From Campylobacteraceae bacterium (GTDB lineage: Bacteria > Campylobacterota > Campylobacteria > Campylobacterales > Sulfurovaceae), in the NCBI GenBank assembly GCA_027035765.1, contig JALVUD010000006.1:1-51725 (forward strand): DNA of 51,725 nt, read 5' to 3'. The position numbers were made by a program, and so were the translations under genes. The notes beneath the pieces are model-generated. The model searched no databases. It was not told the DNA's origin and was given only the letters and a program-made list of their open reading frames with translations. Below are positions 3,476 through 36,362 of the stretch, in pieces; positions within the stretch are counted from its first letter, which is position 1; each line of letters opens with the position of its first letter.

Positions 3476-4303
3476 TTACCCGGGTTCGATCCCTTCCGGA
3501 CAAGGCACCTGAACGATCTCGCACTCCCGGGTATCGAGGCGTCTGGCGGTAAGCCTCCCCCGCCAGAGACATCCGCTGTCGAGGCAGCAGACCTCCTCGT
3601 TTTCGAAATAGCCCAGCGTCGACCAGTGGCCGAAGATGATCTTCTCTTTCATCGGTTTGCGCACGGGACACTCAAACCAGGGGATCAGCCCTTTGGCCCG
3701 GACCGCTTCGGTGGGGGCGCCCTTCTGATCGAAATCGAGCCGTCCGTCGGGCCGACAGTAGCGCATCCGGATAAATCCCGCCAGCATATAACGCTCATGC
3801 TGCAGATCCCCGCCCAGTGGATCGAAGTGATCCTCGTTTTTGCTCATCATGGCCTGCAGCCACTCCGCTGCCCGCTCGCTCTGCAAACGGCGCATCAGAA
3901 TCCGGTTGTAGTGCAGACTGCTTCCCAGCCCGAACTCGGGAGGGATCCCTGCGTGAGCCATCACGAAGCCGAGCTTCAGATCCACCTGAACAAAAGGCTG
4001 TTTTCTCAGCCACTCCAGCCAGATCCCACCGCGAGGATCATCGAGGATAGGATCCAGGGTCGGATTGGACTTTTTGATCCTCCAGGCCGCCGCCAGCAGC
4101 GCGATGTCGTGATTGCCCAGCACCACCCGCAGGCTCTCGCGAATGGAGTAGAGATACTCCAGGACCTCTTTTGATTTTGGCCCCCGATTGACCAGATCTC
4201 CCGCCAGCCAGAGGGTATCTCGCTCGGGATCGAAGTCGATCCTTTTCAAAAGCCGCTGCAGGGAATCGAAGCAGCCCTGAATGTCACCGATGGCCCAAGT
4301 CAT
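3476..4303 (-). CDS. apaH: symmetrical bis(5'-nucleosyl)-tetraphosphatase
   Basis: ApaH hydrolyses Ap4A to two ADP, controlling this alarmone. The 275-residue protein has the metallophosphatase motifs GDIQG (6-10), GDLVNRG (35-41) and GNHD (63-66), and later MAHAGIPP. The open frame continues 46 codons further upstream, but that part is translated heptamer repeat and hairpin sequence. The ATG at 4303 has GGAG seven bases upstream and matches the family N-terminus, so I chose it. Both the Shine-Dalgarno and the start codon lie in a 14-bp stem (4301-4331). This makes translational control likely; see the separate entry. Confidence 0.9.
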   Translation of the reverse strand: MTWAIGDIQGCFDSLQRLLKRIDFDPERDTLWLAGDLVNRGPKSKEVLEYLYSIRESLRVVLGNHDIALLAAAWRIKKSNPTLDPILDDPRGGIWLEWLRKQPFVQVDLKLGFVMAHAGIPPEFGLGSSLHYNRILMRRLQSERAAEWLQAMMSKNEDHFDPLGGDLQHERYMLAGFIRMRYCRPDGRLDFDQKGAPTEAVRAKGLIPWFECPVRKPMKEKIIFGHWSTLGYFENEEVCCLDSGCLWRGRLTARRLDTRECEIVQVPCPEGIEPG

Positions 4304-4331
4304 CTTTGGACTCCTTTGGAGTTCAAAGATG
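4301..4331 (-). promoter_or_regulatory. hairpin covering the apaH Shine-Dalgarno and start codon
   Basis: On the plus strand CATCTTTGGACTCC (4301-4314) is the inverse complement of GGAGTTCAAAGATG (4318-4331), apart from one G-T pair, with a 3-base loop. In the minus-strand mRNA this is a 14-bp stem. The 3' arm holds GGAG and the AUG of apaH itself. Free energy was not computed, but such a stem should block initiation unless opened. Confidence 0.75.
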
Positions 4332-4590
4332 ACGTGAAGAGTGAGGAGTGAGGAGTGAGGAACCGAAAGCTTTGCTTTCGAATGATGAATGGTAAATGGT
4401 GAATGGTGAATGATTTTGGGGCGTTGCTCCGCAACGCGCATTTATAGAGGTGGGATTTCAGTCCCGCAATGCAGGGCTGAAGCTCTGTCTCCCAATGACC
4501 AATGACCAATGACCAATGACCAAACTCACTGCCGACTGCCGACTGACGACTGACGACTCCCGATACGTAACACTTACTACGTAACACTTA
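4304..4590 (-). repeat. heptamer/hairpin leader module before apaH
   Basis: Read in the apaH direction, the module holds these parts. A 14-bp direct repeat (4578-4590 and 4564-4576) overlaps the end of the glycosylase gene. Five ACTGCCG/ACTGACG heptamers follow at 4528-4562. Four CAATGAC heptamers (TTGGTCA on the sense strand) are at 4493-4520. Small hairpins around 4452-4486 come next. A hairpin GCGTTGC-TCC-GCAACGC is at 4421-4437. Four GGTGAAT-type heptamers (sense ATTCACC) are at 4384-4411. A hairpin CGAAAGC-TTT-GCTTTCG is at 4364-4380. Four GTGAGGA-type heptamers (sense TCCTCAC) are at 4334-4361. The start-codon hairpin ends the module. The order matches the rnr and holA leaders. Confidence 0.85.
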
Positions 4591-26592: not shown

Positions 26593-26766
26593 TCGCCTGT
26601 CCTGTTTTCGATCCGAAGCGCCACCGCCCGTCCTTGATGGCGGATGGATCCGAGTAGGCAACCCGGCTGTCTTTTCCAAGACCCGTGGCTTTCCGTCCTA
26701 TCCTCTCAGATAGTTTGGCTTTGTCTGTTTGTGCTTTAAGTATACATAAAAAAGGGACGGTTGGGC

Positions 26767-32136: not shown

Positions 32137-32985
32137 ATGGAAAAATTCAAGACCTATTTTCTGATGGTGGGGCTGACCCTGCTCTTTATCTGGTTCGGCG
32201 GTCTCATCGGCGGACAGAGCGGCATGGTGATCGCTTTTCTGATCGCTGCCGGGATGAACTTCTATGCCTACTATTACAGCGACAAGCATGTGCTGGCCCA
32301 CTATCATGCCCAACCGGTCGACGAAAGCAGCCATCCCAGACTCTATCGCATTGTCCATGACCTGACCCGCAAAGCGGGACTGCCCATGCCCAAGCTCTAC
32401 ATCGTCCCCGATCCGGTCCCCAACGCCTTTGCCACAGGTCGCAACTACGAGCATGCCGCCGTGGCGGTCACCCAGGGACTGCTGGATCTGCTGGACGACG
32501 AGGAACTCGCCGGAGTCATCGCCCATGAACTGAGCCACGTCAAACACTACGACATCCTCATCGGCACCGTCGCCGCCACCATCGCCGGGGCGATCAGTAT
32601 GCTGGCCAACTTCGGACTCTTTTTCGGCGGAGATGACCGGGAGCGCAATCCCATCGTCACCCTCGCCCTGATGATCATCATGCCCCTGGCAGCCACCGTG
32701 ATCCAGATGAGCATCAGCCGCAGCCGGGAGTTTGAAGCCGACAAAGGGGCCGCCCTGATAACCGGCCACCCCGAATGGCTCCAGCGGGCCCTGAGCAAAC
32801 TCGACAACTACGCCCGCCGCGGCGCCGTGGTCCACGACGCCGATCCCGCCACCGCCCACATGTTCATCGTCAACCCCTTCAGCGGCCTCGGCGGCCAGGT
32901 CGCCAACCTCTTCCGCACCCACCCCACGACGGAGGAGCGGATCGAACGGCTGGAAGAGATTAAATATCAGTTGCGGAGCAACTGA
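32137..32985 (+). CDS. htpX: HtpX-type membrane protease
   Basis: HtpX is a heat-shock zinc protease of the inner membrane for quality control of membrane proteins. The 282-residue protein has two N-terminal membrane helices (about 9-43), the catalytic HELSH (130-134), two more helices (about 145-190), and the third zinc ligand in [10 protein letters not shown]. The last codons (QLRSN) are encoded by a GTTGC/GCAAC palindrome (32969-32983) that resembles the first hairpin of the leader modules. It leads a co-oriented series htpX-rnr-holA. Confidence 0.92.
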
Positions 32986-33163
32986 TATGGTCATTAGTTA
33001 TTGGTCATTGGTTATTGGGAGCGTTGCACAGCAACGCAAACCAAAACCATTCACCATTCACCATTCACCATTCACCATTTCGTGGGATAGCAATCCCACG
33101 CTACAAAAATTCCTCACTCTTCACTCTTCACTCTTCACTTTTGCTTCCCCAAGGGGAAGCAAA
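32969..33163 (+). repeat. heptamer/hairpin leader module before rnr
   Basis: The parts in order are as follows. A palindrome AGTTGC-GGA-GCAACT (32969-32983) ends htpX. Four GGTCATT-type heptamers lie at 32989-33016. A hairpin GCGTTGC-ACA-GCAACGC is at 33021-33037. Four CATTCAC heptamers lie at 33048-33075. A hairpin with CGTGGGAT and ATCCCACG arms is at 33081-33100. Four TCCTCAC/TCTTCAC heptamers lie at 33111-33138. The Shine-Dalgarno hairpin is at 33140-33163. The module fills the whole htpX-rnr gap. Confidence 0.88.
33140..33163 (+). promoter_or_regulatory. hairpin enclosing the rnr ribosome binding site
   Basis: TTTGCTTCCCC (33140-33150) pairs with GGGGAAGCAAA (33153-33163) over a 2-base gap, an 11-bp stem. 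The 3' arm contains the purine-rich ribosome site, and its last base is the A of the rnr ATG. Confidence 0.75.
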
Positions 33164-35163
33164 TGAGTCCCTTCGGTATCCAACTCACCCGGGGCTTTCT
33201 TCCCTCCGACCTGGAACCTGAGGATTTTCCCAAATACGAAGCCCTGGAGCGTCTCGGAGCCCTGGAAGAGGATGAGCGGGGGCTGTTGCGGCTGCGTTCT
33301 CTCTACCGGGTGGGGCGGCTCTGGATCGCCGAGGGTGGCAAGGGGTATGTGGAGGCCGAGAATCGGGAAGAGAAGGATCTGCTCATCGAGCCCAAGGATC
33401 TGGACGATGCCAAAAACGGCGACGAGGTGGTGGTCAAGCGGATCATCGCCCGTCGGGGACGTGCCGCCGCCAAAGTGGTCCTGCTCACCCGGCCGGCGGC
33501 CCTGCACCTCATCGGCTACACCCATCGGGAGGAGAACGGGGAGTTCGCCGTTTTGCACATCAAGACCGCCCAACCCATCGAGGCCAAAATGCCCGGAATG
33601 GATCTCAAAGCCTTCAAGCTGGGTACGTTACTTCTCATCGATGCCCTCAGCTCCAAGGTGATCGAGGTACTGGGACATCTGGGGGATCCGAAAGTCGATG
33701 AGCGGATCAGCCTACTGCTCTACGAGCGCCGGGACGACAAGTTCCCGCCCGACTGCGTGGAACAGGCCCTGGCCATCCCCGACCGGGTCCTCCCCGAGGA
33801 GACCCGGGGGCGGGTCGATCTGCGGCATCTGCCCTTTTGCACCATCGATCCCGTCACTGCCAAAGATTTCGACGACGCCGTCTATCTGGACCTGGAGAGC
33901 CACACCCTCTACGTCGCCATCGCCGACGTGAGCCACTACGTCCCCTACTTCAGCCCCATCGACAAGGAGGCGAAGCTGCGGGGCTTCACCACCTACCTGC
34001 CCCACAAGGCCTTTCCCATGCTCCCGAGGGAGCTGAGTGAGAACATCTGCTCCCTCAAACCCCACGTGGACCGCCTCGCTTTTGTCAGCAAGATCACCCT
34101 CGATCCCAAAACTCTCCAACCCGTTGATGAAGAGTTCTTCGAGGGCGTCATCCACTCCAAACGGCGCTGGAACTACGACGAGATCGATGCGATCCTGGAG
34201 GGGCGACGCACCCATTTCAGCGAGACGGAGCAGAAGATCCTCGACTGGCTCCTGCCGCTGCAGAAGATCACCGTCCGTCTGCGCAGACAGCGGCTCAAAA
34301 AGGGCTTCGATTTCCGCACCGACGAGGTGAAACTGGCCATCGACCCCGAACACGAACTCAAAGAGACCACCATCGAGACCGGCACCCCGGCGCATAGCCT
34401 TATCGAGGAGTGTATGCTCCTGGCCAACAAAGCCGCCGCCAGGCGATTCGAGGGAGACGGTGATGCTATCTTCCGGATCCATGAGGCCCCGGAGATGTCC
34501 AAGATCGAGGAGCTGCTGGAGGAGCTGGCCACCGTCGGGATCTTCGTGGAGCTTCCCGAGGAGGCGGAGATCCCCGCCATCATCCGCTCTATCCAGAAAG
34601 AGGCCGCCGCACAGGGGCTGGAGGCGGAGGTGGACGCCCTGATCATCCAATCCCTGCGCCGGGCCGCCTACTCCCCTTTCAACGTGGGCCATTTCGGACT
34701 GGGATTCAAGAAATACAGCCACTTCACCTCCCCCATCCGACGCTATGCCGACCTGATCCTCCACCGCCTCATCAAAGCCGACCTCCAGTCCGACAGAGAG
34801 AAAAAAGAGTATCTCCTGCGCAATATCGAACCCCTCTGCGTCCGGGTCAGCGAGCTGGAGCGCAACGCCACCAAGGCGGAGTGGGATTTCCGGGACCGTA
34901 AATTCGCCCGCTGGGCCGCCCGACATCTGGGAGAGACCTTCCCGGCGGAGATCGTCGAGATCGACCTGGAAGACAGCAGCAAAGGGGCCAAAGCGATCCT
35001 GGAGTGCGAAATGCAAGGCATCGTCGTCAACCTGCGGGCCTACGACGCGCTTCTTTTCGATAGGATAGAGGTCAAGATCACCGAAGCCAATATCGCGCAG
35101 GCGGTGATTATGGCGGAACAGACGAAGAAACTGGAGAAAGGGGAACTAGTAACTAGAAACTAG
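33163..35163 (+). CDS. rnr: ribonuclease R family exoribonuclease
   Basis: RNase R degrades structured RNA 3' to 5'. The 666-residue protein is shorter than E. coli RNase R (813), as usual in Campylobacterota. A cold-shock-like N-terminal region leads to the RNB catalytic domain with TIDPVTAKDFDDAVYL (Asp residues near 235-238) and ending at GLGFKKYSHFTSPIRRYADL. A divergent S1-like domain follows. The C-terminal residues ELVTRN are encoded by AACTAGT repeat DNA, and the stop lies in the same tract. Translation probably depends on opening the hairpin over its ribosome site. Confidence 0.92.
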   Translation: MSPFGIQLTRGFLPSDLEPEDFPKYEALERLGALEEDERGLLRLRSLYRVGRLWIAEGGKGYVEAENREEKDLLIEPKDLDDAKNGDEVVVKRIIARRGRAAAKVVLLTRPAALHLIGYTHREENGEFAVLHIKTAQPIEAKMPGMDLKAFKLGTLLLIDALSSKVIEVLGHLGDPKVDERISLLLYERRDDKFPPDCVEQALAIPDRVLPEETRGRVDLRHLPFCTIDPVTAKDFDDAVYLDLESHTLYVAIADVSHYVPYFSPIDKEAKLRGFTTYLPHKAFPMLPRELSENICSLKPHVDRLAFVSKITLDPKTLQPVDEEFFEGVIHSKRRWNYDEIDAILEGRRTHFSETEQKILDWLLPLQKITVRLRRQRLKKGFDFRTDEVKLAIDPEHELKETTIETGTPAHSLIEECMLLANKAAARRFEGDGDAIFRIHEAPEMSKIEELLEELATVGIFVELPEEAEIPAIIRSIQKEAAAQGLEAEVDALIIQSLRRAAYSPFNVGHFGLGFKKYSHFTSPIRRYADLILHRLIKADLQSDREKKEYLLRNIEPLCVRVSELERNATKAEWDFRDRKFARWAARHLGETFPAEIVEIDLEDSSKGAKAILECEMQGIVVNLRAYDALLFDRIEVKITEANIAQAVIMAEQTKKLEKGELVTRN

Positions 35164-35384
35164 TAACTAGTAACCGAAAGAAGTATGGAAGGGATGTATG
35201 TGTATTGGTATATTGGTGTATTGGTTATTGCGGAATGCCTCCAGTGCTTTTATTCGTCGTATAAAAGGAAGCGTTGCACAGCAACGCATACCAAAATTAC
35301 TAGTTACTCATTACTAGTTACTAGTTTTTCCATTCCTCACTCCTCACTCCTCACTCCTCACTTTTCCTCCAAAGGAGGAAACTA
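35144..35384 (+). repeat. heptamer/hairpin leader module before holA
   Basis: The parts in order are as follows. Four AACTAGT heptamers (35144-35171) contain the rnr stop. Three octamers GTGTATTG/GTATATTG plus GTTATTG lie at 35200-35230. A hairpin GCGTTGC-ACA-GCAACGC (35271-35287) is identical to the one before rnr. Four TTACTAG-type heptamers lie at 35297-35324. Four TCCTCAC heptamers lie at 35334-35361. The Shine-Dalgarno hairpin is at 35363-35381. The middle hairpin present in the other two modules is missing. Confidence 0.87.
35363..35381 (+). promoter_or_regulatory. hairpin enclosing the holA Shine-Dalgarno
   Basis: TTTCCTCC (35363-35370) pairs perfectly with GGAGGAAA (35374-35381) over an AAA loop. 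The 3' arm is a near-consensus Shine-Dalgarno, 4 bases before the holA ATG at 35385. Confidence 0.78.
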
Positions 35385-36362
35385 ATGTACCAACGCGAAT
35401 TCGATCAGCTTCTGCAAAAGGGGCTTCCCAAAGCGGTGCTGCTCTACGGGGACAACGCCTATCTCATCGAACAGACCCTCGAGCGGTACAAAAAAGAGCT
35501 CGACGCCACCGAATCGATGGTGAGCCTGTATCATGATGAGTATGATTTTGAGCGGGCCCGCAACCATCTCTCCCAATCTTCCCTCTTCGGCGGCTACAAC
35601 CTGCTGCTGATCCGCCGGGAGAAAAAACTGCCCAAAAAAGAGCTCGATACCCTTATCGAACTCACCCGCAAAAACGATGAGAGCTATCTGCTTTTTGCCT
35701 TTGACGGGGACGCGAAGGAGGCCAAGGCGATGCAGGGAAGCTTCTCGGAGAAAAAGGGGGGCGTGTGGGTCCGCTTTTTCGAGCCCAATCCCCGAGAGGG
35801 AGTGGAGATTTTGCGGCAACGGGCGGCGGCTCTGGGGATGCAGATCGATGACTATGCCCTGAATCATCTGCTGAGCCTTCTGGAGAACAACCTGGCCCTG
35901 GCGGCCAAAGAGCTGGAGAAGCTTTCCATCCTCCGGGAACCCGTCACCACCAAAACAATAGACCGTCTGGTCTACTCCAGCGCGCCTTTGGCCGTCGAGC
36001 GACTCCTGATCGATCTCTTCAATAAAAAACCGATCACCGAGACCATCAGCCGTCTGCTGGAGCTGGGGGCCAACGAATTTGAGATCCTGCGTGCCACCCA
36101 GTTTTTCGTCAATCAGATCTTTCTTTTCCACGCCTATATCCGTCTCCACGGCATCGCCGATTCCAAGGCGATCCTGGGCTACAAACTTCCAAGGCAGGTG
36201 GAACAGCAAAAAGCCGCCCTCGCCGCCCGCATCAAACCGGCCGCCTGGATCCGGATCTATGATCATCTGTTGGAGTCGGAACTGCGGCTGAAGATGACAA
36301 AATCGGAGTATAAAGAGACGGAGCTTTACGGAATCTTGATCAAACTGCAGAGTTACCTTTAA
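35385..36362 (+). CDS. holA: DNA polymerase III delta subunit
   Basis: The delta subunit of the clamp loader opens the beta sliding clamp. The 325-residue protein begins with MYQREFDQLLQKGLPKAVLLYGDNAYLIEQ, and shows the AAA+-like but ATPase-dead organisation of delta with a helical C-terminal domain. No Walker A is present, as expected. It converges with serS. Translation initiation is probably governed by the hairpin over its ribosome site. Confidence 0.85.
   Translation: MYQREFDQLLQKGLPKAVLLYGDNAYLIEQTLERYKKELDATESMVSLYHDEYDFERARNHLSQSSLFGGYNLLLIRREKKLPKKELDTLIELTRKNDESYLLFAFDGDAKEAKAMQGSFSEKKGGVWVRFFEPNPREGVEILRQRAAALGMQIDDYALNHLLSLLENNLALAAKELEKLSILREPVTTKTIDRLVYSSAPLAVERLLIDLFNKKPITETISRLLELGANEFEILRATQFFVNQIFLFHAYIRLHGIADSKAILGYKLPRQVEQQKAALAARIKPAAWIRIYDHLLESELRLKMTKSEYKETELYGILIKLQSYL

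Follow-up and report, generated by a model that had tools for sequence, protein, structure and literature searches.

Ordered strings of heptamer arrays and hairpins in the intergenic gaps of a Sulfurovaceae genome and their possible role as translational leaders

In this study we analysed a stretch of 51,725 nucleotides (the window), which is contig 6 of a Campylobacteraceae bacterium of the family Sulfurovaceae (assembly GCA_027035765.1; genome of 2.03 Mb in 47 contigs). The gaps in front of its genes rnr, holA and apaH consist of short arrays of 7-nt units and of hairpins, set out in one plan, and we found that this feature is real, ordered and genus-wide. The reading that we prefer, and hold tentatively, is that such gaps are composite interspersed repeats, made of heptamers like the short tandemly repeated repetitive (STRR) sequences and of palindromes like the repetitive extragenic palindromic (REP) sequences, which turn over at the DNA level, become leaders of messenger RNA (mRNA) and probably tune the initiation of translation. 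The parts are of known kinds, but their ordered assembly with a private hairpin at the start codon appears not to be described in the literature that we searched.

A preliminary description of the window, made from its letters, had proposed a common plan for the three gaps. By reading the sequence and by use of Tandem Repeats Finder (TRF), with which all tandem arrays were located, we found its parts at the places it had given or within a few bases of them, and the plan was confirmed before rnr, before holA (where the second hairpin is lacking) and, on the minus strand, before apaH. The statistics given below rest on 797 kb of this genome (G000), whose contigs were picked since they carried copies and were then sampled in long blocks, and on 400 kb of a congener whose genome is closed (G011). 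Genes were called in both with a simple purpose-written caller based on codon usage.

The description had also held that such a plan is not expected of drifting spacer DNA, and the counts bear this out. The pattern of the GCGTTGC hairpin, GCGTTGCNNNGCAACGC, occurs at 57 places in the genome, and its reversed control at none. Arrays of period 7 number 129 in non-coding against 14 in coding DNA of G000, where each of the other periods from 4 to 13 gives 0-7 non-coding arrays, and 51 against 5 in G011. They fall into 34 families of heptamer units. A typical array holds 3-5 units and there seems to be a ceiling of about four copies, as 72 of the 129 arrays have 4 units and only 3 have 6 or more. 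When the same-strand gaps in both genomes, 366 in all, were parsed along the direction of transcription into 14 pattern-defined modules, a single order held for 194 of 197 module pairs (98.5%), compared with at most 73% after shuffling within gaps; the module patterns had been picked after reading G000, and the order learned on G000 alone predicts 25 of 25 module pairs in G011. The feature is genome-wide and far beyond chance. From the stop codon of the upstream gene the order runs AAGTCGC, TGAGGAR, CGTTTGT, AGTCGGC, CATTGGT, GTGCTAA, AATGGTG and paired REP-like palindromes, and it continues towards the downstream start codon with the GCGTTGC hairpin, CACCATT, CTTCCAT, TTACTAG, the CGTGGGAT hairpin and YTCCTCA.

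The orientation of the parts follows the edges of genes. In the left half of a gap arrays are G-rich, with 52 cases to 4, and in the right half C-rich, with 40 to 4. Since tandem, divergent and convergent gaps all show this skew, it belongs to the edges of genes and not only to leaders; read on the coding strand, the flank that follows a stop codon is G-rich and the one that precedes a start codon C-rich. The modules TGAGGAR and YTCCTCA are complementary to each other, so that the order rule partly restates the skew rule. It had been claimed that the parts always lie in the sense direction of the downstream gene. This is true of the three gaps, but genome-wide it is only a bias, with 43 sense and 7 antisense arrays of the side-specific heptamers AGTCGGC, CGTTTGT, CATTGGT, CACCATT and CTTCCAT, and with 12 stop-to-start and 5 start-to-stop copies of the core formed by the hairpin and its ACCRAAA linker. 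A strict rule by which each string is the leader of the downstream gene is broken by the antisense cores and by the convergent gaps. Pairing of left with right arrays was rejected as the cause of the skew, because their complementarity is no higher than in permuted gaps, although the holA and apaH gaps individually do fold with such pairing.

The part that ties the strings most closely to translation is the hairpin at the start codon. We defined a start hairpin by a stem of at least 6 perfect pairs that reaches the last 18 nt before the start codon, and a gene as array-bearing if an array lies within 45 nt. Such hairpins were found in 15 of 34 array-bearing genes against 19 of 691 others in G000, and in 8 of 21 against 10 of 346 in G011 (Fisher p ~1e-18 for both genomes pooled). 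Their stem sequences are gene-specific and differ between genes, and the commonest loop has 3 nt (23 of 33 start hairpins). The ribosome-binding sequence lies in the 3' arm in 17 of the 33, in the loop in 6 and in the 5' arm in 9; counting 3' arm and loop together, the hairpin hides it in 23. The start codon is itself part of the stem in 17 of the 33. In the orthologs of rnr, holA and apaH from up to ten genomes the two arms covary: 90-96% of a gene's own pairs are Watson-Crick, against 51-57% when the arms of different orthologs are crossed. A convincing start hairpin is absent at the orthologs of the three genes in the distant or element-free congeners G002, G003, G007 and G012. The 3' arm of the holA hairpin, GGAGTTCGCTG, matches the ribosome-binding sequence GGAGTTAGCCTA of element-free Sulfurovum. 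In element-bearing holA genes the ancestral-looking GGAGTT ribosome sequence serves as 3' arm and is matched by a complementary 5' arm, which suggests that the hairpin was built around a pre-existing ribosome site. The tracts on the start side contain 6% G, compared with 31% on the stop side. The predicted openness of the mRNA is 0.63 with arrays and 0.44 without at positions -55 to -25, and 0.39 with arrays and 0.47 without at -20 to +3.

Comparison with relatives showed a rapid turnover of the pieces. That the parts vary while their order stays had been read from the three gaps of the window, and we found the same layout with different pieces in the gaps of eight congeners, where the rnr, holA and apaH gaps retain much of the plan and modules are swapped. 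In G001 the coding DNA of rnr is 95.8% identical to that of the window and its leader can be aligned only as two pieces at 75-77%. The rnr leader of G006 keeps one block of 90 nt at 94% and differs in the start tract, the start hairpin and the upstream tract. Several element-free relatives are tightly packed in this region; htpX abuts rnr and rnr overlaps holA in G012, and rnr runs into holA in element-free Sulfurovum. The hairpin-linker core is found in this genome, in 8 of 12 congeners and in three genomes of a sister genus, and is nearly absent from the other relatives searched. An assembly artefact can be ruled out, as the same plan is present in eight other genomes. Of 298 genomes of the phylum, 4 have the TTGGTCA array pattern. 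One of the four, G039, is from another family and has 79 matches to the pattern; at two inspected loci (L182, L189) the array stands right after a stop codon, and one of them also has a C-rich array before the next start.

We infer from these data how the composite repeats may arise and act. A copy would be a string of modules that begins with G-rich heptamer arrays at the upstream stop codon, followed by palindromic hairpins of the GCGTTGC and REP-like types, by C-rich and nearly G-free arrays and finally by a hairpin for which the downstream gene itself supplies the ribosome-binding site or the start codon. Modules would spread and be replaced across gaps and species by events at the DNA level, in which 7-nt units slip, shared arrays exchange with one another and inverted arms are created again, and their order may be maintained by common descent and by exchange at matching modules. 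The almost wholly Watson-Crick arms fit better with recent creation at the DNA level. Most copies lie between same-strand genes, so that in transcripts they would form both the 3' tail of the upstream gene and the 5' leader of the downstream one. The G-free tract is predicted to stay single-stranded and to serve as a ribosome standby site, and the last hairpin to restrict access to the start site, so that the most likely effect of the element would be to lower translation of the downstream gene or to make it conditional. Intrinsic terminators were considered and rejected, as by eye no run of T was seen after the hairpins on the mRNA strand, although no scanner was run.

Four observations weigh against this reading. 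More than half of the array-bearing starts lack a clear hairpin. At the edges of stop codons hairpins are far rarer than at starts (10 of 66 with arrays against 75 of 1026), a scarcity that a pure junction mechanism would not predict; hairpins as a general scar of junctions are thus not the full explanation. The left and right arrays of one gap are no more complementary than arrays of different gaps. Moreover, no transposase or other machinery that could move the modules was found. The preliminary description had also offered a structured mobile element. For an interspersed DNA element there is support in the tens of copies, their patchy occurrence within the genus, the rapid exchange of modules, the inward skew seen in convergent gaps too, and the lack of a G-U excess in the stems.

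The next best account, which we consider clearly less probable, is a dedicated device at the RNA level. The start hairpin would be an RNA thermometer or a regulated gate, the tracts would bind a protein such as ribosomal protein S1, a cold-shock protein or one like Csr, and selection on the mRNA would keep order and hairpins. The preliminary description had suggested such a device, and much of the evidence is in keeping with it: the hairpins are gene-specific, covary in three orthologous leaders, are tied to array-bearing starts and mostly hide the ribosome site, the adjacent tracts are nearly G-free and predicted to be single-stranded, the side-specific heptamers show a marked strand bias, and the three whole gaps fold far better than their shuffles (z-scores -7.7, -4.0 and -3.6). 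The layout also resembles the ribosome standby design of tisB, in which the hairpin that sequesters the ribosome site is preceded by an open tract (PMC7708055; PMC3936740). Standby sites are known gene by gene, however, whereas here the kit of repeats is genome-wide and the standby role is a prediction. Stems selected on the mRNA should tolerate G-U more readily than A-C pairs, and no such excess was seen, with 4 G-U against 11 A-C pairs in 43 start hairpins and 4 against 9 in the GCGTTGC hairpins (small numbers from related copies), so that selection on the mRNA strand is unproven. Further points against the device are that the ribosome site lies in the 3' arm in only about half of the start hairpins, and otherwise in the loop or even in the 5' arm, that the inward skew is also seen in convergent gaps, which have no start codon, and that rnr, holA and apaH have no evident shared function.

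It is also conceivable, although we regard it as rather unlikely, that the strings form a genus-wide combinatorial system of leaders. Swappable heptamer and hairpin modules would then make up an ordered code, a gene that gains a string would rebuild its private start hairpin, and the expression of genes in operons would be retuned by exchange of modules and not by point mutation.

More doubtful is a neutral by-product of mutation, in which replication slippage with a preference for 7 nt makes the arrays and template switching at quasi-palindromes makes and perfects the hairpins, while the gaps tolerate both and nothing is selected. Heptamers are the commonest long bacterial repeats, and the footprint of the polymerase has been put forward to explain them (Mrazek 2007, cited in PMC4679880), the arms are perfectly paired with few G-U pairs, and module order is independent of pairing between arrays. 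However, slippage leaves unexplained why different gaps share units, why the module order is fixed and why arrays stop at about four copies, and it does not account for hairpins being so strongly tied to starts rather than stops. A whole element of the kind of miniature inverted-repeat transposable elements, with TGAGGAR and YTCCTCA arrays as terminal inverted repeats and a transposase encoded elsewhere, is very improbable: the outermost arrays are mirror images in many gaps (C16:12501, C23:12906), the inward skew is found in all gap types and the distribution is patchy, but gap lengths and module sets vary freely, the start hairpins are gene-specific and not carried along, the end arrays are as complementary between gaps as within them, and neither a target-site duplication (by eye) nor a matching transposase was found.

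Several known systems share features with the composite repeats. The STRR heptamers of heterocystous cyanobacteria are likewise intergenic 7-nt direct repeats at many loci per genome, and the one unit compared, TTGGTCA, also occurs there. When 72,556 plasmids were searched with the rnr leader, only pC052_B of Nostoc sp. C052 gave a match, with TTGGTCA repeats that follow immediately on a stop codon in the gap between two genes of one strand. It has been noted that STRRs form hairpins (PMC2670836), but we found no report, in a comparison of literature only, of ordered heptamer families with hairpin modules and a start-codon hairpin in cyanobacteria. The TAACTGA repeats of marine Beggiatoaceae are intergenic heptamers upstream of start codons with a patchy distribution, and a role in translation has been suggested but not proven for them (MacGregor 2015, PMC4679880). 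They form one unit family of 2-6 copies, with no associated hairpin predicted, and rarely occur with canonical ribosome-binding sites (PMC4679880), whereas here at least 30 unit families stand in fixed order with hairpins over the ribosome site. Our searches of the literature agree with the preliminary description, which knew of no report from Campylobacterota, but heptamers as a class have been described from cyanobacteria and Beggiatoaceae.

Several of the hairpin modules resemble the REP sequences and bacterial interspersed mosaic elements (BIMEs) of REP-associated tyrosine transposases (RAYTs), in that GTAG or GGAG is joined to a palindrome, singly or in inverted pairs. We found this layout in the CGTGGGAT and GGAGGC hairpins and not in the GCGTTGC hairpin, which has no GTAG or GGAG neighbour, or in the start hairpins, which are gene-specific. 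A RAYT was considered as mover of the hairpins and rejected, as the only locus with a Y1 (RAYT-like) transposase, L135 (G000 C20:28345-28674), is flanked by other repeats, the inverted GGTCAGGTGATGC / GGGGTCAGGTGATGC.

With regard to existing RNA families, no Rfam family above threshold covers the leader, and the only match in the window at the gathering threshold is an unrelated c-di-GMP riboswitch. The full model of whalefall-1 RNA (Rfam RF01762) matches the antisense of the rnr TCTTCAC tract and start hairpin with 20.3 bits (E 0.0034 on 201 bases), compared with a gathering score of 37; no match reached 37 bits, and the best one in the relatives has 25.5 bits. In G008 a match of 23.2 bits (L195 1501-1546) again lies antisense to a TCCTCAC tract and a start hairpin directly before ATG. 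In its original description whalefall-1 is a standalone RNA on the opposite strand, found in a whale-fall metagenome and with no known host (PMC2864571). The family may be a wrong-strand reading of a leader like these, which we offer only as a lead from sequence.

The repeats in bacterial intergenic gaps are mostly regarded as separate families that lie scattered. In this case several families keep to one order with respect to genes, this order holds between species despite the fast turnover of sequence, and the string ends in a gene-specific hairpin at the start of translation. If the strings act on translation, ordinary repeats would have a route to rewrite 5' leaders throughout a genome and to replace tight overlaps of genes. 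The feature is also a direct test case for the origin and the role of heptamer repeats, which have been known for decades without a function.

In the window, the gap between htpX and rnr carries its parts on the plus strand. The upstream edge holds more than had been described. At the stop codon of htpX stands a perfect hairpin, ATATCAGTTG-CGGAG-CAACTGATAT (32964-32988; 11-bp stem in the predicted fold), with the TGA inside its 3' arm; G005 has a compensated change, ATATCAATTG-CGGAG-CAATTGATAT. In several other congeners a different hairpin, of the type GGCGCTC-GGT-GAGCGCC, covers the htpX stop. The G-rich stop-side tract of TTGGTCA/ATTGGTT units (32988-33018; TRF period 7/14) is followed by the GCGTTGC-ACA-GCAACGC hairpin, the module with 57 copies (33021-33037), and by the linker AAACCAAAA (33038-33046), whose form NNACCRAAA is common to copies with other stems. 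Next come the C-rich start-side tract, the CATTCAC tract, which TRF gives as ACCATTC x4.9 (33046-33079), and the CGTGGGAT-AGCA-ATCCCACG hairpin (33081-33100), which on the minus strand reads as GTAG and a palindrome, that is the REP layout; 15 near-copies of this hairpin are spread over tandem gaps in two genomes. The start-proximal TCTTCAC tract (33110-33139; TRF 33114-33139) leads to the rnr start hairpin, TTTGCTTCCC-CAAG-GGGAAGCAAA (33140-33163), which was seen in the sequence and the predicted fold, covaries in orthologs and lies over the ribosome-binding site and the A of the ATG.

The gap between rnr and holA is likewise laid out on the plus strand. The first tract of this gap had been taken to be TTGGTCA-like; the stretch at 35144-35174 is instead an AACTAGT array across the stop codon of rnr (TRF), which can pair with 35296-35326, and the stop-side tract of the expected kind, TATTGGTG/TATTGGT, follows at 35200-35230 (TRF period 8/16). 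The part of the array at 35144-35163 codes for the last residues of RNase R (LVTRN) and the stop codon, and in relatives this C-terminus ends in other arrays or in none. A GCGTTGC-ACA-GCAACGC hairpin (35271-35287) with its linker ATACCAAAA (35288-35296), a TTACTAG tract (35296-35326; TRF) and a start-proximal TCCTCAC tract (35334-35362; TRF) precede the holA start hairpin, TTTCCTCC-AAA-GGAGGAAA (35363-35381), which carries the Shine-Dalgarno sequence in its 3' arm and is seen in sequence, fold and ortholog covariation.

The apaH leader lies on the minus strand. From the far end it starts with a stop-side AGTCGGC/AGTCGTC tract (4528-4563; TRF) and a TTGGTCA tract (4492-4523; TRF), followed by an inverted, BIME-like pair of REP-like palindromes (GGAG...CTCC; 4447-4492; sequence and fold), the GCGTTGC-GGA-GCAACGC hairpin (4421-4437) and an ATTCACC tract (4380-4412; TRF). 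The TTGGTCA and ATTCACC tracts are predicted to pair in four 4-bp helices spaced by 3 nt. The variable hairpin, CGAAAGC-AAA-GCTTTCG (4364-4380; sequence and fold), and the start-proximal TCCTCAC/TCTTCAC tract (4334-4361; TRF) then lead to the apaH start hairpin, CATCTTTGAACTCC-AAA-GGAGTCCAAAGATG (4301-4331), whose 3' arm holds the Shine-Dalgarno sequence and the start codon, as seen in sequence, fold and covariation of orthologs. The GCGTTGC hairpins of all three gaps were located by pattern search. The leaders were compared by patterns and module parsing, the modules being too variable for a covariance model of the whole leader.

Regarding the genes themselves, rnr (33163-35163, plus strand) encodes an exoribonuclease of the RNase R/VacB family. 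It scores 444.5 bits with the RNase R model (NCBIfam TIGR02063), under the cut-off of 597.85 bits, and NCBIfam places it within the VacB/RNase II family. It is 97% identical to rnr of Nitratifractor sp. S013_45 and 60-65% identical to that of most Sulfurovum relatives returned. The assignments of holA (35385-36362, plus strand) and apaH (start at 4303, minus strand) are supported by NCBIfam.

Some further repeats were observed in passing. Two arrays of G000 are exceptionally long, ATTTTGG with about 18 copies (C14:17894-18022) and TCACTCT with about 15 (C40:7788-7896). Some convergent gaps have another set of modules, in which AACTCCT arrays adjoin a palindrome like TTGACAA-ttttt-TGTCAAG (G000 C2:815, C8:4056 and C8:132386; L016, L025, L031). 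A longer module of about 120 nt (TCAGAAGGTGGGATCGCGCTTCGCG...CTCTCACC) stands ahead of the GCGTTGC hairpin at G000 C16:5334, C39:69600 and C19:12258, and the same module is also present in the rnr leader of G005. Unrelated to the leaders, the window contains a c-di-GMP-I-GGC riboswitch aptamer at 26653-26728 on the minus strand, which scores above the Rfam gathering score.

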